Shown here: piece after piece, positions 11,525 through 63,784 of the stretch | Numbering within the stretch: the first letter of the stretch is position 1 | Layout: every line of letters starts with the position of its first letter | Assembly: GCA_034670405.1 (NCBI GenBank) | Contig: JAXDDX010000001.1 | Span: 6,622,001 to 6,686,000 of the forward strand | Source: Hoplostethus atlanticus | Lineage: Eukaryota > Chordata > Actinopteri > Trachichthyiformes > Trachichthyidae | DNA length: 64,000 bases | Direction of reading: 5' to 3' | Program-made: the position numbers and the translations under genes | Notes under the pieces: generated by a model | Databases searched by the model: none | What the model was told of the DNA's origin: nothing | Seen by the model: the letters and a program-made list of their open reading frames with translations, nothing else

Positions 11525-14500
11525 ATGCTCGGTTCAGGCCAGGAAAAGGCTCCAAACCTTAAACAATGTATGATACGATCTCATACAAAGTCACCCACTC
11601 CAGATTAGAAAATCTGACTTCTTGCCTGAATACAACCCAGATAACTACGACACTCAAGTAACATAAACTGAAGACAATGGAAGTTTTGAATACGTCTCTA
11701 TACATAGCTATTATGATCGCTGGGATAATGTTATCTGTCCTTGTGTTAAAGAGCATTGAACGGTTGAAGCTGTTCTACTTAGCAGCCTTTGTTCCATTCT
11801 CAGAGCTCTACATTTTGACCCGGAGATGAAAACAATAGCCTGGAGACATGAAAGGTATTTTGAACTCCCCCATCTCCACAAACCGCTAATTTTTGTGTCG
11901 TCCTCTGCACCCCTGGAGGGAAGCCAAGTGTAGGCTCAAGCTCTGAAGTGAGCTGTAATAGATTTTCAGAGGGCAGAGAGTAGAGGGCACTGAAGCCAGG
12001 CAGGCAGAGAGCTGGTAGAAGCACCATGCTGGTGCACTGACAGTGACTAAACCCTGGGGAGACCCTGCTCAATAGAGCAGCAGTTAAACAAGGCTGAACT
12101 CTGCAGGGTCATGTCCCATCTGCCCCTTTCCTCCTCCTAGTGGGGCTTCAAGCCACAGACCGAGCATGTGTATTGACAGTACTAGCAGAATGGCACAATT
12201 CTGTGTTAATGCCTCAACTGAATCATCTGTGTAGGTGTTTAACACCTACATACATTTTGTCTGATGTTTTTCCCATCCGGTAGGAAAAGATGAAGAGCAA
12301 AAATAAGCTGGTTCCACGGCTGCTGGGGATAACCAAAGAGTCGGTGATGCGAGTGGATGAGAAGACGAAGGATGTGGTGCAGGAGTGGCCCCTGACCACA
12401 GTCAAGAGATGGGCTGCCTCCCCCAAGAGCTTCACCCTGGTACTGTGTGACCCTTTCCAACAAGTCTACAGTTCCACTACAAAGATCTTATTCACTCTGT
12501 ACAATGTCATGTGGGTTTATATATGGGCTGAGATTAGTGCTACCAGAAATTGAGCATTTTTACTCCAAACTAGAGTGAAATAAAAGTTTGAGGATCAAAT
12601 TCAATTTCAAGCCATTATATTAAATTGTGTAATACAAATTCAAATTATGCAATTCAAATTCAATTTTTTCATTCACTCAATTTGAGCATGACAAATTCAA
12701 ATAAATGTAGTTCAAATAAAATTTCTGGTGGACATAATCTTCCCCCAATTTCTATTTTCCAACACAACGTTTGACGTCAAACTATGATATTGAATGTTTT
12801 CAGCATGCTAGTCTGCTATTTCGTCCCAGTTTACAATAGATGGCAGGGGAAGAATATGGAGAATTTGGATGTTTTATTCATCTGAGGGCTTTTTCAATAT
12901 TGTATATCAGCTGTCAACAGTACAGTCTGTTTTCTCCCCACATTGTCTTATGAAGGCAGACTACTCAGCTCTACTCAGCTCCACTACTACTGGAAAGGAA
13001 TAGCCCATTTAAACATTAATACTAGTATGGAAATTTAAAAAATACACATATTTGCCGACATTGATTTGAATTGAAACCCCTGTCTCTCCGTAGGATGCTT
13101 TGAAGTGAGTAGTTTTGAGATTCTGAAAACGAGTACATCTCATTTTTTATCATCTCTTTGAAGGAGTTGGATCCGCTGTAGAAGCCACTCAATTTTTCTT
13201 TTCATTAAGAGTAGGAATGATGAAGGTGTTGCCAGGACAGTTTATTCAAAGCTTCACACTCAGTAAGCCAATTGTTTCATCTATGAAATGACTGTAAGGC
13301 TCTTGTTAGGACAGAAAATGTTAGAAGAGGAGTTGTTGGGAGAATGTTAGAATACCGACACTTGGTTTGCCCTGAATCTCTGCTCGGCCTTCAATGTGCT
13401 TCTGTCAATTCACTCCAAAGGATTTTGGAGAGTACCAGGAGAGTTACTACTCTGTTCAGACTACAGAGGGAGAACAGATCTCGCAGCTTATTGCTGGATA
13501 CATCGACATCATACTTAAAAAGGCAAGTAATTACAACTCAAACATTATAACAACTTGGTGAATTAATATAGTGCATTATATGATCCTAGCATACATTGTT
13601 CACTGTGATGTCTGTTTCTCTTCATCTCTGCAGAAGCAGAGTAAGGATCGTTTTGGCCTTGAGGGAGATGAGGAATCTACCATGTTGGAGGAATCGGTCT
13701 CCCCTAAGAAGTGAGCAGGGTTCATGTATTAACTACTGCAGGGTCTTTGCACTGCTAAGCGCAGGAGTATGCTGACCAGTCAAATTCAAGCAGCACAGCC
13801 TAGTTATTCCTCATGTGAATTTTAACCTCACACTTTAATTGTGCATATAATTACATTTCTGCATGCCCAGCATAGTTCCCCCAGGAGGAGTAACGTTAGA
13901 GTTAAACACACAAATAGCAGTTTGAATTTTAAAATAACACTATCCAGTCTCTGTATTCCAGAATCAAATTTGTTCCAGTGCTTTCCTGTGCAATTTGTAA
14001 AATTGCAAATTGTTTCAAACCTAAAACTGCCTGAGGGTAAAACTACTACATTATCACCGTAATTCACAAAGGATTAGAAGACATGAGTGAAGATATCATC
14101 TTGTTGGAAGCTGTTTTTTCAAGTAGTTTTTGTCTCCCAGTTGGATGCCATCTCTCCTGATTTTGCCTCATAGCTTAGCGGCTGAAGGCAAGGTAATGCA
14201 GATGGACCAATGCTCTGTCACACAGAGCATTGGGAATTGTTGTCATTGGAAATCCACATGGCTCCTAGTGAACCCCCTCTGTGACAGAATGGGCATCATA
14301 TTCCTGCTGCGTATGGACCAATTGACTCATGTTGTGGTTCTCAGCACAAAAACATAATTGCTGCCTCTCAAAACAAGCCATAATTAACCAATAGAGTCAG
14401 CAGCATCTGTTGAGCAGGGCAGGAAAACAGTTTTTTTTTATGCAATATTTTTTTCTGACAATGCAAACTCGTAGAGGAAACAGTTATTATCGTGATAATT

Positions 14501-26500: not shown

Positions 26501-29500
26501 GAGAAGCCAAGCAGCCAGTCCCACAGGGCTTGGGCCTGACTGACTTCCCTCTGTCTAATTAGGAAGATGGAAGCCTTGGCTAGAGCCTCTCTGTGCTCAG
26601 CAAGGCTGAACACAAACTGAATGCAGTCCCGGCACTCCTGTGCACTGTGTTAGCCTATTACAGCGAGAGACTAGCAATGCCGTGCTTGCAGGGAGGAGCT
26701 CAGAGTGTGTGTGAATGTGTGTGATAGGTGGTGTGTGAAGAGAGAGAAGGCAGGCTGTGTGCGTATGCAGAGAGAGATGCTAGAGGTAAAAAAAAAAAAA
26801 ATCTGCGTGACTGCCCTTGTGTTTCAGGGCGGTGACGGAGAGTATTAACCAGCTGATCACGCTCTGTACCCAGCAAGCAGCGGGACAAAAGGAGTGTGAC
26901 AACGCCTTGAGGGAGTTGGAGGTAGCCGCCTTCACAGACATACACTGTACCAAATGTACTTTTTCTATTTTCTGTCGCCTATACAGCCCTGCATGCCCTG
27001 CTGCTCAGGGAAACGAAGTAGATTTTTTTCACCATTGCTATCCATCTATTTGGCGTTTGGCCCGGACAGCTCATTTGGTAGAGCATAAGACTCTCATTCT
27101 CAGGGTCGTGGGTTCGATCCCCACATAGTGTCAACTCTCACCTTTGTAAGCCTTTTTGGATAAAAAACCGCCTGCTAAATGAATGTAATTTGGTTTAGTG
27201 TTGACAATATTGCTGTATGTGCTGCAGCGCTCTGTCTCCATGGGAAATAATTAGCCAGTCATTTACTTCCACTGAGCCTCAAGTCCCTCCAGCTTATGCC
27301 CCTCTTCCTCCCACCATGTACTAACATTCATGAACCCATTCACTGTTCTATTTCTAATTTTGCTGAACTTCACATTCAGAACTGCCTGTAAAAATGACAC
27401 TTGTATAACAAAAGCATTTTTGCGAAGGGTACTCTCATTTATGTCCAAGTAATTAAAATGTACAATAACGGTTGCATTTTAAAACCTTTTTATGTTGCAT
27501 AACTGCTGCATTGTATCACCCTGACTTAGTAGGGGACTTATTGGTTTGTATAAGTTTACTGTTTGTTTACTGTTTCCAATCTGAATTTATTGAGAAAAAG
27601 TTGTATTCAGTGGTGTGTCTGTTGGTGTTGAACTTTTTACCATCTCCCTCTGTGCCCAGGCTGTCAGAGGGCTCCTAGATAATCCCAATGAGCCTGTCAG
27701 CGAACTCTCCTACTTTGACTGCATCGAGAGCGTCATGGAGAACTCAAAGGTATGGGCTTTCAAAACAATCTCATGTGCCATTCTTTAGCTGTCAGAAATA
27801 TTTATAGGCACCTGCAGATCTAACTCCTTCATGTTTTCTCCATTTCCACATGCTTCAGGTCCTTGGAGAGTCCATGGCAGGGATTTCTCAACACTGTAAG
27901 ACAGCCGATGTGACTGCCTTCGGGGAGAGTGTGGGCGTAGCCTCCAAGGCCCTGTGTGGGCTGACGGAGGCTGCAGGACAGGTGAGATCACGGCCTGGTG
28001 CCGACTCAATATGACTTCTTTTCATCTCCTCTTCTCTCCTTTCCTTTCCTCTCCTCTGCTCTTCACTCAAACCACATCTGTGGTCAGATTTAATCACAGA
28101 ATTTATATTTCTAATGAAGAAACTAAATGTATAAGCATTCTATTAACTGAGTTCTGCCCTCTAAGGCAGAGAGAAACTGAAGGTAACTAGGGCTTGATAC
28201 TTTTTGATTGAAGCTGCTAATAGCTGATTTTTTGTTCCAATATATGATTTTCATGCCAAAGAATTTCAACTAATTACAAGGATCCAGCATTTCCACCAGA
28301 ATTGTATTCTTGTCAGGTTGTAAAAGCCTCTGAAACAGCATTAAGACCATCATGGGACACTTAAACTCTCAATTAAAACCCATACTAATGAAATTGTTTT
28401 AGGTTAGCAGTGCCTTAAGGCTGGTGGAGACAGGTTTCATTGCAGGTTTTGCAGACTACCACCGCTGAACCTGTTGAGTAAAATCATCCTCACCTCATAT
28501 CGGCAGTTGGTAAACCATTATATCGGTTTAACCCTAGAAGTAACCATGCTTCGTTTTCTGTCCTGTAGGCCTCATATCTAGTAGGTGTGTCTGATCCACA
28601 TAGCCAGTCAGGCCATGAGGGGCTGGTGGATCCCATCCAGTTTGCACGGGCCAACCAGGCTATATACATGGCCTGTCAGAACCTAGTGGACCCCGGCCAG
28701 CAGTCCCTCACAGGTGAGAAGGTCCATCTGGGACTGCAAAACATTGCAGGACCATTAAGTGGCATATGGAAACTGCAAAAGGGACTGTAATGTAGATCAC
28801 AAATGGCTCATTAAGTTTGAAAACCTTAAAACCAACCTTAAATATATTAACTTCTGTTCATCTCACCAGATTTGCCTCATTTTATACAACTTTGCTTGCT
28901 GTTTGTTTATGTGTTTGTGTTTTTGTTTGTTAGGTCTTGTCCGCAGCAACGATTGTAGCCAAGCATACCTCAGCCCTCTGTAATGCCTGCCGCCTGGCTT
29001 CTTCTAAAACCTCCAACCCTGTGGCGAGGAGACAGTTTGTCCAGTCAGCCAAAGAGGTGGCCAACACCACAGCCAACCTCGTCAAAACCATCAAGGTCGG
29101 CTCCCTAACCAATCAAAAAAATTAATATAAGTAAAGATTTGTTTTCAATGCCTTAAACTTCTAGTGAGACGTTCAGTGAGAACTTCTGGTTTTCTAATAT
29201 TGATATTATTATATTATATAGTTCTCACTACATTGTAATAACGCCTTAATCGCTTAAATACGGCCAAATTAAAATATATGAAATATTCAGTGTCATTATC
29301 TGGTTTCAGGCCTTAGATGGGGATTTTTCTGAGGACAACAGAAACAGGTGCCGTGTTGCTACAACCCCACTTCTTGAGGCTGTAGAGAACCTATCCACAT
29401 TTGCCAACAACCCTGAGTTCGCTAGCATCCCTGCTCAAATCAGCAACGAGGTATGTGTATGAGAGCATCTGCAGATTTTTGTTTTGATGCCTGATTTCAG

Positions 29501-39687: not shown

Positions 39688-42600
39688 CTTTTATGTTTTC
39701 AGGTGCTCCAGAAGCCCACACCAGAGCAGAAGCAGCAGCTGGCCGTACACTCTAAGCATGTGGCGGCATGTGTGACAGAGCTCATCCAGACAGCTGAGGC
39801 CATGAAGGGTGAGGCCACACACAATGCTGCTGCACGCTGTGACGCCCTCGTACAAACATACTCACACTCAAATCATATCATATTGAGGTCAAAAGGTTTT
39901 GGGACCCCGACATTGAAGACACATGAAAGTTATGTATCTTTCCCATCGTCGGTGTTCATGGTGTGAAACAGCGAATGAAACAATTCACTTTTCCTTTCCT
40001 GCATTCAGGCTAGTAAGGCTGTTTTTTGGCTTTAACAGAAGCGTCTGTGCTCTCCAAAAAATTGTTGGCAGTAGACTGACTATCAGACATTAATATACAT
40101 GACCCTAAAATTGTGAAAGCCTGAACCAGCAGAATCTAGTTTATAATGTGGTCAGAGCATTCCCATTAGTAACTCATTTTGATGAAATAGAAAAAACATG
40201 ACAGGATTGTGGAGATGTTGGAGATTATACAAAGGAGCCCTAATCCTCTTCTGCATGGATGGTATTCACAGTATTATGGAGTCAGGCCACCGAACCTGTC
40301 TGTGTCTCTAATAAAGACAGGTTGTGAAAATCACTTTAGTATATTGAAATTGCAGAGAGAGTAATTGCAGTGGAAATTGCTCCAAATTGAGCGCTGTACG
40401 GTGGTTATGACACCAACTTACCAGAGTGTTGCCTCTCGAAGCCGTGCTGGCATATTTCTGACAGGAGTAATAGATTGTGTTTGGATGAGAATTAGATTCC
40501 AGCGAATAGCCTGAGACCCAGCGGGGCTATCCACTTCACCTCCCTAATGTCCCTTGTGCTCTCTCTCTCTCTTTCTCTTTCTTTGCTGCCTCAGATGGAG
40601 GTAAGTGGGATGTGGTGTGTTTTTGTTCCTCCAGATCACCTTTCATAGACTCAGAAGGGGGTAGAGTAGTAGAGGAGTTGGGGGTGGGGGTGCAGAACAG
40701 ATTTCCCCAGGGCTCGACATAATCTACGAAAACATCCCTCCATCTGCTTCCCCAAGCTGTTCCCAAACAGCTCCGTTTTATGGCCACTTTAAAACCTATA
40801 AAAAGACAATGATCCATCAAACGTGCATTTCTTCTAACTCTTAGTTAATGTTATTTAACTTTGAGGCATTACGCTCACGCTGCGAACACGTCTTTGGATC
40901 GGATCGAATGAATGATTTCTGCTGCAGTTCAAAGAGGTTGAGAGCATTTTTATCCATGCCTGGATTGTATGAATGAACGTGCAGACACATCATTTTGACT
41001 TGTTTTGCATCAGAGATATGCTATATTTAATATACTTCAGAGATATGAAGTAAATTAAATGTCAGCGCCAGAGGTAATGGCGCGTCTGAGCATAGAAAGT
41101 ATGTGATAACCACTGTCTGGGTGTGTAATGATCATTTTCAGGTTCAGAATGGGTGGACCCCGAGGACCCCACTGTCATTGCTGAGACTGAGCTCCTAGGG
41201 GCTGCAGCGTCCATCGAAGCTGCAGCCAAGAAACTAGAGCAGCTGAAACCCAGGGCCAAGCCCAAGGTACTGCCCCCCCCCCCACTCAACCCCTCTCCTC
41301 CCACACAACCATGCACAGCTTTTTGCCATTAATCAGCAGGGAGAATATGTGGGCCAAAGGTAGGAAAAGGTGACACTGACTTTGAAGTGTAGTCATCCTT
41401 TTCAGTGACTAAGCTGCTATCTCGATGTCATTAAAATAAAAAGGGTTTTTACAGTTTGTTGACTCAGACAAATGATTTGTTCAGCTAACGTATGATTGTT
41501 GGAAAGTTTCATCAAGGGCACCTTTGGAGATTATTTTGAGTTGTGTTACCAGGAGACGCAATTACATGGCCTGGTCCTGAAGCTTATGTTGGAATGAGTT
41601 CAAGTGTATGATGAACTGTTTGCGTCTCTTTCTGAAGGAGAGGCCGTCTGTCTTATTGAACCTATTTCCTTTTGTTTTATTACAGCATTCCTCCTTTCTA
41701 AACTAAACTGAGGGAGGCTTTTTCAGCCTGTGTTATTCATCTACCCCATGCTGTGGTATTGCATAAAAAACTAAACAATGTTAGCATAAAATAGCCAATG
41801 AAAATATTATACATGACAGGAGACGATAGTGATTGTGCTTTACGAGAGTGAAGTTACTTTTTTTGCTGTACTGTATGCAATGTGGGGTTGCGTTTGTGGT
41901 GTGCTACTGCATGGTTGTTTGTTCGTTTATCTGTCACTGGAGACTGGATAGCTAAACCCCAATGCTCTTCCCTCTGTGCCTGTAGTGCTTTATCCCCTTT
42001 TCTCTCCCTCTTCTAGTAAATGCATAGTGCTTGTCAGTTCACCCAGTCCCTCTGTCTGTGTGATATAATGGAAAGCATATCTAGGTGACCCCAGATTTTA
42101 TTAAAGACTCGTCTGGTAATATAATTCCATACCTATGTACTACACTCATGTGGAGCCTAGTGTGCAGTGGATTAATGGGCTAAAGGCTTTTCCTATTTTT
42201 GATGTCAGTGTCTCCCTCTAGTGATAAAACACGATGTTGCATCCAGTCCTACCAAGAGGCATTTATCTGCACAGATGTTTTTCTCATGTTAGGACAGTTC
42301 ATTTTGTATTTGCACAAATCATTACTATCCCTTATACACAGAAATGAAAGAGAATATTTTACCATAATGTGTGATGTGACTATAAAAAAAAGGGGATATG
42401 GGAACATCATTTCTGGCTAAGAGCAGTTATCACTTCTATAAAATGAAGGTCGTTTGAGTGCTGAAGCTCAGTGAAGTATTCCAATCCACAAAGTCAGTCT
42501 CACATGTGTTAATGGAGCAGGTCTCAGGTTGTATGCACGATTGACACCACAGATTAAAGTCTTGGCTTCAGGCTGTGGGGGTGTAGGCCTTCTAGCATTG

Positions 42601-45069
42601 GCAGAGACTGACCTATACCAGAGGGATAGCTTATATGATTTCTTAGATTGTTTGGTAATCCCCTTTTAAAATAGTCCTATTCTCCTACCACTGGAATAGA
42701 CAGCGAATGATCACTTATGTTTACTTCACGCAGAGGCAGAGATAATAAAGTAGCATGACGAATGCTCAGAAGCATCAAACCAAGCTTAATATAAGAACAG
42801 CAGATCTCTAGATGCTTCCATCAAAGATTTATCTGTGAGTGACTAAAACACCTTTTATTCCCCCGTCTTCTTCCATGTTTCCTCCTCTGTGCTCCCTCTC
42901 CTTCCTGCTTTTATGTCCTTCCCACCCAGTAAGGGGGGGCTTTCCTGCCCCAGCATGCTCCCGCCCCCCGCCCCCCCCCTCCTCATTCTCTGAGCCGTTG
43001 TAGACCTGGAAGCCTTCTCTGCAGGGCTCTGTCTGATATGTTTGATATATTAGGTTGTTATTCAGTCCAACTATATATCAAACATATTCCTACAGTGTCC
43101 CGCTCTGTCTCCAGCCACGTGTGCCTTATGTGTTTATGGAGATCTGTGGTCAATAACCTGTTGTTGACTGCTGAGGCAGAGATGGCCATGTGTAATTTGA
43201 CCCCCAAATAATGTATTAATCTTCATAAGGATCTTCAGTTCAGTTTGGGAGGGGTCGGTGGTGACTACCACAATATGTCACCCTCTGTTGATTTCATACT
43301 GTATAGCATATTGTAGTTTAAAGTCAAAGTTGATGTGTGGTTCTACTTTCAGCAGGCAGATGAGACGCTGGATTTTGAGGAGCAGATCCTTGAGGCAGCA
43401 AAGTCCATCGCTGCAGCCACCAGCGCTCTGGTTAAGTCTGCATCAGCGGCTCAGAGAGAACTGGTGGCACAAGGCAAGGTCAGTCAAAAACCCACTCAGA
43501 CACTCACGCGCTCTAAACAAGATCTACTACTGTGCTAGTAACTTCACGCTATATCAGCATCTTTTCTTCATCACTCTCTACCCTCCAGGTGGGATCCAAT
43601 CTAGCCAATGCAGTGGATGACGGCCAGTGGTCACAGGGTCTCATATCAGCCGTGAGTTCCTATGAGTATTATCCTAAATTTAAAATTAAAAAAATTCTTC
43701 AAATCAAACTGAATGTGAATGTGGTGCTTGCTGTAGGCGCGTATGGTAGCAGCAGCCACCAGTAACCTGTGTGAGGCAGCTAACGCCTCAGTGCAGGGCC
43801 ATGCCAGTGAGGAGAAGCTCATCTCCTCAGCCAAACAGGTTGCGGCCTCCACAGCTCAGCTCCTAGTGGCCTGTAAGGTTAAGGCAGACCAGGACTCTGA
43901 AGCCATGAGGAGACTGCAGGTAACCAACAAGACTACTTTTCTTTAACACTGTGAAACTTACTGTGCACACATGGATTGTGTGCATGCTAACTTTGAGACT
44001 GTTCTCTCCAAAGGCTGCTGGCAATGCAGTGAAGCGTGCCTCAGACAACCTGGTGAAGGCGGCTCAGAAAGCGGCATTTGACAAGGCTGATGATGATAGT
44101 GTGGTGGTGAAGACCAAATTTGTTGGAGGCATAGCTCAGGTGAGACAGTGAAAACTATTTCTGTAAGGCCTGGAAATTAAAATTGCATTTCTTTTCTCTG
44201 GCTGGCCTTTTTCATGGAACTAGTGTGTGTCTTGCTGTTCTCATGCAGAGTTCTGACATTACGTCTCAGTCATTTCTTCCTTGCCGCCGTTGTGGATAAA
44301 CAACACATCAGCTGCATTTCAAAGCTGTTTAACAGGCATTCACGGTTGCATGAACATCTAAGACTCTTGAAGAGCTTTCACATTCTTCTGTCACAGCAAA
44401 CAACTCACTTCCTTTTCATCCTTGGCCAGATTGAAAGCAATTATAGAGTCTACTGGTTCGAAAACCCTAGGGTGCCACGGGAAGCTTTAGTTTTTATCTG
44501 GAATGGGTGATTCCATATCTGAATCAGTGGTGCACCCTAGCTGGTCACCAAGGCACTTTCGACAAGTAGGTTTCCTCAACCACTTTTCAACTGTGACCCA
44601 TTTACTGAACAGTGTATGGTCACTATAATTTCAAATGTAGCTAGATGGGCATCACTATGGTACAACAATCAGAGTTACCAAATCTTTAACAGTTAAGAGA
44701 AACAAGTAGAGTAGAGTAGAGTACAACCTATATTCCCAATGTTCTGAGGAAAGATACTTGACTTGATCTCATATGTCTCATATCCAGATGTTTTTGAACT
44801 GGGTAGTGATCAATTCATATTTGAATGATCATTGGTTGATTTTATTATATTGTATGCCACACTTTCTCACCGTGAGGTCCTGTTCTGTGTATATTCTTCA
44901 ATATATCACACATTCTGTCAACTGTTCCTGTCCTCCCCAGATTATCGCTGCACAGGAGGAGATGCTGAGGAAGGAGCGAGAGCTGGAGGAGGCCAGGAAG
45001 AAGCTGGCTCAGATCAGACAGCAGCAGTACAAGTTCCTGCCCAGTGAACTGAGGGAGGACGAGGGCTGA
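2909..45069 (+). CDS. tln2: talin-2, complete coding region in 56 exons (one-base surplus in exon 33)
   Basis: Talin is a cytoplasmic adaptor: its FERM head binds integrin beta tails and its rod binds vinculin and F-actin. Translated exons match recalled human talin-2 nearly end to end, from MVALSLKICVRQCNVVKTMQ to a tail ending ELREDEG. Exon lengths sum to 7636 nt. Allowing for one extra base in exon 33 this gives 2544 residues, against 2542 in human TLN2. All junctions are phase-consistent except exon 33 to 34; all introns are GT-AG except the GC-AG intron after exon 10. The ATG at 2909 has A at -3 and G at +4 and follows an acceptor at 2870, so the 5'UTR is split and the promoter lies upstream of the window. 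A miR-190 hairpin in the intron before exon 52 supports TLN2 over TLN1. As written the exon 33 frame break would truncate the protein in rod domain R8; I think an assembly indel is likelier than a dead gene, because every other exon is intact. Confidence 0.96.
5664..5702 (+). repeat. CT microsatellite
   Basis: Interrupted CT run in tln2 intron 5. Confidence 0.9.
6385..6705 (+). repeat. pyrimidine-rich low-complexity tract
   Basis: About 320 nt of C/T-rich sequence with a strong strand bias in tln2 intron 5, including CTGTCTGTCTGT and several C runs. No coding content seen. Confidence 0.75.
7174..7209 (+). repeat. CA microsatellite
   Basis: Eighteen uninterrupted CA units in tln2 intron 5. 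Confidence 0.95.
8694..8739 (+). repeat. GA microsatellite
   Basis: Nearly pure GA run of about 46 nt in tln2 intron 5. Confidence 0.95.
9363..13522 (+). CDS. tln2: tln2 exons 6-10: FERM F2 and F3 (PTB-like) subdomains
   Basis: Exons are 9363-9490, 9802-9865, 10035-10139, 12284-12439 and 13421-13522, encoding residues 222-406. F2 begins with ARDDILNGSHPVSFDKACEF and carries the basic membrane-facing patch. F3 is PTB-like and binds the integrin NPxY motif; its key segment KRWAASPKSFTL, with the conserved Arg-Trp pair, is intact near residues 361-372, split at the exon 9/10 border. Exon 10 reads DFGEYQESYYSVQTTEGEQI and ends IDIILKK. Its donor is AAG|GCAAGT, a GC-type 5' splice site; no in-frame GT alternative is visible nearby. 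Confidence 0.95.
10140..12283 (+). other. tln2: tln2 intron 8
   Basis: 2.1 kb intron with two GT repeats and an A-rich run near 10597-10611; otherwise featureless to me. Confidence 0.85.
11487..11524 (+). repeat. GT microsatellite
   Basis: CG then GT run in the intron before tln2 exon 9. A shorter GT run lies at 11205-11230. Confidence 0.95.
12440..13420 (+). other. tln2: tln2 intron 9 with an AATTCAAAT-type motif cluster
   Basis: From 12594 to 12725 variants of CAAATTCAA and AATTCAAATT recur at least six times in both orientations. Probably degenerate A/T-rich repeat DNA; no family recognised. Confidence 0.6.
13634..17061 (+). CDS. tln2: tln2 exons 11-16: head-rod linker and rod R1
   Basis: Exons are 13634-13710, 14730-14913, 15179-15292, 15799-15907, 16527-16735 and 16963-17061, encoding residues 407-670. 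The linker (about 405-485) includes LEGDEESTMLEESVSPKK and a Gly/Ser/Met-rich stretch ending GQMHRGHMPPL; it is the most diverged part of the protein and in talins contains calpain and phosphorylation sites. R1 starts around SLAQQALMGTINSSMHAVQQ and continues through WVQNKVDESKHEIHSQVDAI. Exon 16 ends DERFQ at a weak donor, CAG|GTTGGA. Confidence 0.94.
17713..20858 (+). CDS. tln2: tln2 exons 17-20: rod R2-R3 and start of R4
   Basis: Exons are 17713-17880, 18290-18584, 19626-19792 and 20730-20858, encoding residues 671-923. Exon 17 reads DILMNLAKAVANAAAMLVLK. Exon 18, at 295 nt the longest here, contains VVSPTISSPVCQEQLVEAGK and GEPIGRYDQATDTIM. R3 is the mechanically weakest talin bundle and holds vinculin-binding helices; exon 19 reads GEMVRQARVLAQATSDLVNA with the R3 helix LLAAAKLLADATARMVEAAK. 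Exon 20 starts GAAAYPENEDQQQRLREAAE and ends KKKLVNRLE. The acceptor of exon 20 lies just after a GT repeat. Confidence 0.95.
20677..20697 (+). repeat. GT microsatellite close to an acceptor
   Basis: GT run ending about 30 nt before the acceptor of tln2 exon 20, with further GT units between. Confidence 0.95.
22106..26231 (+). CDS. tln2: tln2 exons 21-29: rod R4-R6
   Basis: Exons are 22106-22219, 22405-22518, 22651-22785, 23010-23138, 23285-23387, 24304-24512, 24937-25056, 25289-25486 and 26092-26231, encoding residues 924-1343. Recognisable segments are IAAKQAAAATTQTIAAAQNA (exon 21), PGSKMVSSAKSAVPTVADQA (23), LEKCAQDLGSTSKTVGSSMA (25), GVAARETAQALRTLAQSARG (26), VAKAVSHSLNNCVNCLPGQK (27) and STEDQIQVIGNLKNISMASS (29). 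These are four- and five-helix bundles with buried amphipathic vinculin-binding helices. Exon 24 has a poor acceptor, GGTTGAAG after a GT-rich tract, yet its reading frame and protein match are clear. Confidence 0.95.
23388..24303 (+). other. tln2: tln2 intron 25
   Basis: 0.9 kb without recognisable features. Confidence 0.75.
25487..26827 (+). other. tln2: introns 28 and 29 of tln2
   Basis: Introns flank exon 29 (26092-26231). The second has CTCF-like matches near 26468-26500 and a poly(A) run before the exon 30 acceptor. Confidence 0.65.
26828..30817 (+). CDS. tln2: tln2 exons 30-36: rod R7 with inserted R8; frame problem in exon 33
   Basis: Exons are 26828-26921, 27660-27749, 27859-27981, 28569-28713, 28934-29095, 29310-29450 and 30636-30817, encoding residues 1344-1655. 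R8 is a four-helix bundle inserted in a loop of R7; in talins R8 binds LD-motif proteins such as DLC1 and RIAM as well as vinculin. Exon 33 reads SYLVGVSDPHSQSGHEGLVD and stays in frame to NLVDPG, then has one base too many before the strong donor CAG|GTGAGA. It is 145 nt where 144 is needed for exon 34 to enter as VLSAATIVAKHTSALCNACR. Exon 36 joins to exon 37 as ITSIRDKAPGQRECDY. Confidence 0.94.
27060..27192 (+). repeat. tRNA-Lys-derived SINE with L2-type 3' tail
   Basis: The 5' part (27060-27131) keeps box A-like GACAGCTCATTTGGTAGAGC and box B GGTTCGATCCC, closest to tRNA-Lys. The acceptor stem no longer pairs and the anticodon loop reads CTCTCAT. The 3' part ends TTTGGATAAAAAACCGCCTG followed by CTAAATGAATGTAA, the tail shared by fish SINEs and L2-clade LINEs. 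It lies in the sense direction in the intron between tln2 exons 30 and 31. Confidence 0.75.
29451..30635 (+). other. tln2: tln2 intron 35
   Basis: 1.2 kb, A/T-rich in the middle; nothing supported. Confidence 0.75.
31332..34200 (+). CDS. tln2: tln2 exons 37-43: rod R9-R10
   Basis: Exons are 31332-31464, 31583-31684, 31825-31995, 32341-32487, 33016-33117, 33264-33383 and 34054-34200, encoding residues 1656-1963. R9 (about 1655-1825) is the bundle that masks the F3 integrin site in autoinhibited talin. Key segments: ALQEQLTSSVQEIGYLIDPI (exon 38), VTQLASYFEPLIVASVGLAS (39), AAHTHEAISEAAQLMKEAVD (40) and VDEGTPPEPEGSFVDYQTTM (41). Exon 43 reads VGFQIKTRVQELGHGCIYLV and ends ECARAVTEK. All junctions keep the frame. 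Confidence 0.95.
32115..32285 (+). repeat. SINE relic with V-SINE-like core
   Basis: GGGTTCAAGCCCTCG resembles a decayed box B, and about 45 nt later GTGTCCTTGAGCAAGACACT matches the conserved core of vertebrate V-SINE-type elements. Borders are approximate. It lies in the intron between tln2 exons 39 and 40. Confidence 0.55.
32488..34984 (+). other. tln2: introns 40-43 of tln2
   Basis: Introns 32488-33015, 33118-33263, 33384-34053 and 34201-34984 hold short GT and GTGACA repeats but no additional gene. Confidence 0.7.
34985..39808 (+). CDS. tln2: tln2 exons 44-50: rod R11-R12
   Basis: Exons are 34985-35151, 35500-35683, 36001-36126, 37780-37896, 38463-38648, 39149-39256 and 39703-39808, encoding residues 1964-2294. 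Segments include VSLVLSALQAGNKGTQACIT (44), ESILKTAKALVEDTKLLVAG (45), VVLINAVRDVAKALAELIGA (46), VMVTNVTSLLKTVKAVEDEA (47) and VFQSKDVPDKSTTPEEFIRM (48). Exon 49 (QAACYPEVSEELRSKALQYG) and exon 50 (VLQKPTPEQKQQLAVHSKHV) diverge more from human than their neighbours. Exon 50 begins 15 nt after a GT repeat and ends in phase 1, just before the intron with the candidate microexon. Confidence 0.95.
36127..37779 (+). other. tln2: tln2 intron 46
   Basis: Contains the hAT remnant listed separately; the right part (36841-37779) shows only an A12-type run near 37520. Confidence 0.75.
36227..36840 (-). mobile_element. internally deleted hAT DNA transposon remnant
   Basis: The left border TAGGGCTGTAACAATACAAT is typical of fish hAT termini. 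A minus-strand reading frame at 36639-36400 gives a BED zinc finger: AVWQHFVLPIKEENSNKTTD then KTKTVCKYCKRALPSKGNTS. That is the N-terminus of a ZBED/hAT transposase; the catalytic part is absent. The right border is uncertain; a weak terminal-repeat match (ATTACAGCTA) lies near 36838 and no 8-bp target duplication is clear. Located in the intron between tln2 exons 46 and 47. Confidence 0.6.
39658..39687 (+). repeat. GT microsatellite at the exon 50 acceptor
   Basis: GT run ending 15 nt before the start of tln2 exon 50; only TCTTTTATGTTTTCAG separates them, so the repeat occupies the usual branch-point region. Confidence 0.95.
39809..41141 (+). other. tln2: tln2 intron 50 containing the candidate microexon
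   Basis: The only strong internal acceptor-donor pair noticed is at 40595-40600. The rest has no recognised feature. Confidence 0.7.
40595..40600 (+). CDS. tln2: candidate 6-nt microexon of tln2 between exons 50 and 51
   Basis: A long CT tract (40560-40583) leads into TTTGCTGCCTCAG, then ATGGAG, then GTAAGTGGG, which is a near-perfect donor. Exon 50 ends in phase 1 and exon 51 starts with the matching 2 nt. Including the 6 nt therefore changes MK-G-SEWVDP to MK-DGG-SEWVDP, adding Asp-Gly with no frame change. TGC motifs directly upstream of the acceptor fit the known preference of SRRM4 (nSR100) for neural microexons. Inclusion in RNA is inferred, not seen. Confidence 0.55.
41142..45069 (+). 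CDS. tln2: tln2 exons 51-56: rod R13 (I/LWEQ actin-binding) and dimerisation helix
   Basis: Exons are 41142-41266, 43353-43478, 43589-43651, 43737-43919, 44014-44139 and 44941-45069, encoding residues 2295-2544. R13 is the THATCH (I/LWEQ) module that binds F-actin: EWVDPEDPTVIAETELLGAA, QADETLDFEEQILEAAKSIA, the DDGQWSQGLIS motif and CKVKADQDSEAMRRLQAAGN are all present. The last exon is the antiparallel dimerisation helix, IIAAQEEMLRKERELEEARK, then LAQIRQQQYKFLPSELREDEG read to the TGA. This ending is the TLN2 type; TLN1 ends in DEH. Exon 52 has a tandem CAG-CAG acceptor. Confidence 0.96.
41267..43352 (+). other. tln2: tln2 intron 51, miR-190 host
   Basis: Carries miR-190 about 250 nt before exon 52. 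C-runs after 41273 and at 42957-42984 are the only other notable sequence. Confidence 0.85.
43020..43103 (+). ncRNA. mir190a: miR-190 precursor hairpin
   Basis: The sequence folds as a hairpin with 5p arm TGATATGTTTGATATATTAG plus GT at 43034-43055 and 3p arm CTATATATCAAACATATTCC plus T at 43071-43091. The 5p product equals recalled vertebrate miR-190a in every base. The loop TGTTATTCAGTC differs slightly from human. The hairpin is on the sense strand in the intron between tln2 exons 51 and 52, the known host location of MIR190A, so it is probably co-transcribed with tln2. This placement is strong independent evidence that the host is talin-2. Confidence 0.96.
44140..44940 (+). other. tln2: tln2 intron 55
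   Basis: Final intron, 0.8 kb; a short GTAGA tandem repeat near 44707, nothing else. Confidence 0.75.
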
Positions 45070-54907: not shown

Positions 54908-54982
54908 GAAGGTGAAGGTGAAGGTGAAGGTGAAGGTGAAAGTGAAGGTGAAGGTGAAGGTGAAGGTGAAGGTGAAAGTGAA
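54908..54982 (+). repeat. GGTGAA hexanucleotide repeat, about 12 copies
   Basis: Twelve tandem units of GGTGAA with two AGTGAA variants. In frame it reads as a Lys-Val run, which is not a real protein. Confidence 0.95.

Positions 54983-57499: not shown

Positions 57500-63784
<6,285 letters not shown>

Follow-up and report, generated by a model that had tools for sequence, protein, structure and literature searches.

A candidate 6-nt microexon directly upstream of the R13 module of talin-2 in Hoplostethus atlanticus

Intron 50 of the talin-2 gene of Hoplostethus atlanticus contains a 6-nt segment (ATGGAG) that is framed by a strong acceptor and a strong donor and that is probably spliced as a microexon of talin-2. 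Judging from the sequence, we lean towards a genuine, alternatively included exon, whose inclusion would most likely be favoured in neurons. The reading as a real microexon is supported by the fact that no other splice-site pair in the window (the whole 64-kb stretch of DNA that was analysed) is as strong, by the in-frame length, by the rarity of the UGC and UCUCUC combination found upstream, and by a layout that resembles that of microexons of the eMIC program.

The host gene is talin-2, as identified by its match to a human talin-2 sequence and by an independent marker, miR-190. The talin gene occupies most of the first 45 kb of the window. With a human talin-2 sequence as tblastn query, talin exons were found from 9.4 to 45.07 kb, such as the exon at 43737-43919 with 98% identity to the query. 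Further talin head exons, lying outside the gene model, were recognised by eye at about 3.1-4.9 kb. From the 59 tblastn rows with E below 1, 10 rod-domain cross-matches were removed and two rows were split, yielding 51 exon cores and 50 junctions. The resulting gene model spans about residue 218 to the protein end, and some of its junctions have weak donors and are possibly misplaced. A GC-AG junction with an unranked donor took the place of one erroneous junction (13527/13590), leaving 49 donors and 50 acceptors in the rankings; the pair search, the expected numbers and the counts of AG-free stretches still include the wrong junction. A non-canonical GC-AG intron is located at 13523-13633 (exon end AAAAAG/GCAAGT, acceptor CTCTGCAG/AAGCAG), with the joined reading ...DIILKKKQSKDRFG....

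A mir-190 precursor is found at 43025-43099 (Rfam RF00672, 82.7 bits, E 4e-15), and the 22-nt mature miR-190 sequence matches exactly at 43034-43055. The precursor lies in the intron after 41266, which supports the exon 50/51 numbering and the placement of the candidate in intron 50. In mouse talin-2, miR-190 is described in intron 51, a position that is conserved in the vertebrates analysed there (PMC2702505). Several other elements were observed in the window. A partial tRNA match in a talin-2 intron (27068-27124, Rfam RF00005, 36.6 bits) is perhaps a tRNA-derived repeat, and the hexanucleotide GAAGGT is cleanly repeated in tandem at 54908-54982, with 12.5 copies. Downstream of talin-2 and on the same strand, the exon at 62536-62670 was recognised by eye as tropomyosin (45-residue reading), which fits the TLN2-TPM1 neighbourhood.

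The sequence-only reading had described a strong acceptor and donor framing 6 nt in a phase-1 intron; the block, the strong splice sites and the flanking junction were all recovered (Table 1). With up to three mismatches allowed, a search of the 64-kb window for the 17-nt block CTCAGATGGAGGTAAGT (CTCAG/ATGGAG/GTAAGT) returned a single, exact match at 40590-40606 on the plus strand. In the spliced alignment, the host of the candidate is the phase-1 intron 50 (39809-41141, with the donor at 39809 and the acceptor at 41142). The intron measures 1,333 nt and is divided by the candidate exon into 786 and 541 nt.

Table 1. Positions of the candidate microexon, its splice signals and its flanking exons in the window
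Feature	Position	Strand	Basis
Candidate 6-nt cassette microexon ATGGAG	40595..40600	+	Sequence, splice-site pair rarity, frame check
3' splice site AG	40593..40594	+	Acceptor score 9.8; at least that score in 11 of 50 gene acceptors
5' splice site GTAAGT	40601..40606	+	Donor score 11.6; at least that score in 1 of the 49 modelled GT donors
TGCTGC (two UGC motifs)	40584..40589	+	Starts 11 and 8 nt upstream of the candidate exon
Uninterrupted polypyrimidine run with UC repeat	40559..40583	+	Longest alternating run 14 nt
CTAAT branch-point match	40544..40548	+	Sequence match
Upstream exon (exon 50, mouse numbering), end of R12	39703..39808	+	tblastn and spliced alignment
Downstream exon (exon 51), start of R13	41142..41266	+	tblastn and spliced alignment

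The last base of exon 50 is the first of a Gly codon, and the length of the candidate is divisible by three. The predicted inclusion transcript has the junctions ...ATGAAGG-ATGGAG-GTTCAGAATGG... (exon 50-candidate-exon 51). In silico, both the skipped reading (...TAEAMKGSEWVDPED..., AMKGSEW) and the included reading (...TAEAMKDGGSEWVDPED..., AMKDGGSEW) are open. Inclusion thus adds Asp-Gly without a change of frame, just as had been proposed from the letters, and the proposed position directly before R13 was borne out as well. When compared to talin-1 (6r9t), the two extra residues align between residues 2291 (Lys) and 2292 (Gly), so that the insert sits in the linker leading into the first R13 helix. 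The solved talin-1 fragment 2jsw starts at the DPTVIAE stretch, a few residues past the insert point. According to a review, the first (upstream) R13 helix restricts the binding of actin at the C-terminal site (PMC6927945). The Asp-Gly insert may influence actin binding.

Splice sites were scored with untrained matrices, made by hand from general knowledge of the vertebrate consensus (the acceptor matrix covers -15 to +1). Over both strands of the window, the candidate is the sole acceptor/donor pair 3-27 nt apart in which both scores are at least as high as its own. The chance figures for such a pair are post hoc, since the thresholds were fixed at the candidate's own values and the site was chosen by eye: the counts of unused sites give an expectation of 0.016 pairs on the plus strand (where the single donor is the candidate's own) and 0.013 on the minus strand, at least one pair occurred in 6 of the 227 strands simulated with an order-1 Markov model in 500-base blocks and in 3 of the 214 simulated at order 4, with means of 0.026 and 0.014 pairs per strand, and none of 40 block shuffles contained one. 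At looser cut-offs no clear excess of pairs was seen, either on the plus strand (1 against 0.30 expected and 3 against 2.3) or on the minus strand (0 against 0.50 and 4 against 3.1). The window thus contains one outstanding splice-site pair and no general excess.

The polypyrimidine tract upstream of the candidate is a CT microsatellite-like run, which weighs against the microexon reading. Over the 45 nt upstream, the pyrimidine share is 87%, which is attained by none of the 50 gene acceptors. The AG-free stretch before the candidate acceptor measures 71 nt and is longer at only 2 of the 50 modelled acceptors (a set that includes one wrong junction), while CTAAY is present at 9 of 50. It had been argued from the sequence that the upstream TGC motifs are the signature of SRRM4 regulation. 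This part of the argument, the main regulatory one, is weak by itself, since UGC is common at the acceptors of the gene (within 20 nt at 19 of 50 ordinary ones). The pairing of UGC with the UC repeat discriminates better. UGC within 20 nt together with UCUCUC within 60 nt occurs at none of the 50 gene acceptors and at one of 70 strong decoy acceptors (both strands, outside the model), and none of the 70 has the triple combination with CTAAY.

The candidate could also be a chance decoy, in which a consensus GTAAGT happens to follow a CT-rich run and CTCAG after 6 nt, a segment too short for the spliceosome to define as an exon and therefore ignored by it. Acceptors of at least this strength are indeed common outside the gene model (42 on the plus strand, including the candidate and the acceptor at 13634, and 32 on the minus strand). 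Moreover, such a pair arises in about 1 to 3 of every 100 simulated strands, which means that some must exist in a large genome. However, unused donors of at least this strength are rare (only the candidate's own on the plus strand and one on the minus strand), and a decoy needs neither an in-frame length nor the combination of UGC and UCUCUC, with its single occurrence among the 70 decoys. As a rough estimate, about 0.02 pairs per 64-kb sense strand, with factors of 1/3 for the frame and about 1/70 for the two motifs, come to about 1e-4 per 64 kb. On this rough basis, less than one such decoy would be expected if sense introns total an assumed 400 Mb, whereas perhaps several true microexons would pass the same filter. 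This comparison favours a real microexon several-fold, not overwhelmingly, and we consider a chance decoy rather unlikely.

If the microexon is real, the next issue is where it would be included. In a fly-mammal comparison, eMIC-dependent exons are described as having a long AG exclusion zone, UGC near the 3' splice site, a UCUC-rich tract and CUAAY, and most of these features are also observed in mammalian targets (PMC8797185). In zebrafish, 246 neural microexons of 3-27 nt are reported (PMC12626424), and brain RNA-seq has yielded 1,882 microexons (PMC7821500). Of 95 conserved zebrafish microexons, 42 have UGC with a UC repeat immediately upstream, the layout called canonical for Srrm4-controlled microexons, and 44 more are similar (PMC12626420). 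Like the SRRM3/4-dependent neural microexons of the eMIC program, the candidate falls within the range of 3-27 nt (6 nt) and is in frame. It likewise has a UC repeat followed by UGC close to the acceptor (-11, -8), a long AG exclusion zone (71 nt) and a CUAAY match (CTAAT). The candidate differs in its strong acceptor, whereas eMIC-dependent exons are reported to have extremely weak 3' splice-site regions (PMC8797185), although this is a tendency and no strict rule. Because this feature is absent, membership of the SRRM3/4 class is not claimed. It also counts against the preferred reading that no TGCATG is present in the intron downstream of the candidate.

The strong sites are at the heart of another explanation, in which the microexon is real and is spliced in mostly in non-neural tissue (muscle, heart, pancreas) or near-constitutively, with no need for SRRM3/4. 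The candidate donor and acceptor outscore the majority of the splice sites in this gene. For mouse, the strongest sites are reported in the highly included microexon clusters (PMC7821500), so that the candidate is compatible with near-constitutive inclusion as much as with a neural one. The absence here of the weak 3' splice site reported for eMIC-dependent exons (PMC8797185) points in the same direction, and in zebrafish, inclusion in endocrine pancreas and muscle is also reported for subsets of the neural microexons (PMC12626424). It is the UC repeat followed by UGC, the canonical layout of Srrm4-controlled microexons (PMC12626420), that speaks against a mainly non-neural or near-constitutive exon, which we regard as improbable, somewhat more so than a decoy. 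Far less credible still is a real acceptor that serves a longer exon (20 nt with the donor at 40615 or 89 nt with that at 40684), causing a frameshift and lower talin-2 output: these donor-like sites score 6.3 and 5.3 against 11.6 for the donor at 40601, and no other AG between 40350 and 40600 scores above 5.2 as an acceptor.

Recursive splicing at the candidate site was set aside, because intron 50 is only 1,333 nt long and the known vertebrate recursive splice sites lie in very long introns. RNA structure was also rejected as evidence, as the 221-nt region folds no better than its shuffles, of which 158 of 200 do equally well or better (z 0.82). A local 6-bp hairpin (TGCCTC/GAGGTA, loop AGATG, 40587-40603) does appear in both the minimum-energy and the centroid folds, and it would contain the second UGC, both splice-site ends and the candidate exon. 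Within 39700-42000, the repeats comprise a single direct repeat of 18 nt in two copies, which does not involve the candidate exon, and two inverted pairs. One of these pairs is formed by 40592-40606 (exon and donor) and 40732-40746 (downstream intron), which are 87% complementary over 15 nt. A search of prokaryotic and viral contigs with an 84-residue R13 query returned no talin relative; such collections are uninformative on a eukaryotic gene.

For the preferred reading, an alternatively included microexon favoured in neurons, the following mechanism can be proposed. PTBP-type proteins bound to the UC repeat, together with the steric problem posed by so short an exon, would lead to skipping in most tissues. 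In neurons, SRRM3/4 would act via the UGC element adjacent to the acceptor and help the spliceosome to define the exon, in combination with the very strong 5' splice site. These roles of PTBP-type proteins and SRRM3/4 are general knowledge that goes beyond the cited passages. Inclusion would then add Asp-Gly and lengthen the R12-R13 linker just before the first (autoinhibitory) R13 helix. The longer linker would tune the presentation of R13 to actin or its force-driven opening. If real, such a regulated two-residue insert by the autoinhibitory R13 helix of talin would tie the neuronal microexon program to integrin-actin force transmission. It would also represent a form of talin-2 that can escape notice in EST surveys and with ordinary aligners.

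Splice variants of talin-2 have been described in mouse by EST analysis and RT-PCR, namely the skipping of exon 43, the skipping of exons 43 and 44, exon 54b and the testis exon 25c, and the abstract of that study counts four coding-region events (PMC2702505). The candidate exon is not among the variants in the available text of the same study (PMC2702505), and 6 nt are easily missed by EST and RT-PCR. In the main texts of the paper collection searched, no paper was found, by the terms tried, to link talin or TLN2 with microexons, and the only co-mention of TLN2 and SRRM4 occurs in unrelated gene lists. The candidate may still be listed in supplementary microexon tables.

The candidate can be compared to two known talin exons. 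Exon 54b of TLN2 introduces a 15-residue insert into the R13 bundle and is the major variant in mouse brain (PMC2702505). Like the candidate, it is an in-frame insert in the C-terminal actin-binding module of talin-2, and it is tissue-regulated; unlike the candidate, it is an extension of exon 54 and not a microexon. In the present gene, the frame of the exon 54 extension (43920-43946) reads VTNKTTFL and then reaches a stop after 8 codons, so the mammalian 54b insert is unavailable at that place. Exon 17b of TLN1 belongs to the other gene, measures 51 nt, adds 17 residues between R1 and R2, and has RNA and protein support (PMC9997659). Despite these differences, it offers a similar case, in that a previously unannotated in-frame cassette exon places residues between two talin rod domains, as the candidate would do between R12 and R13.
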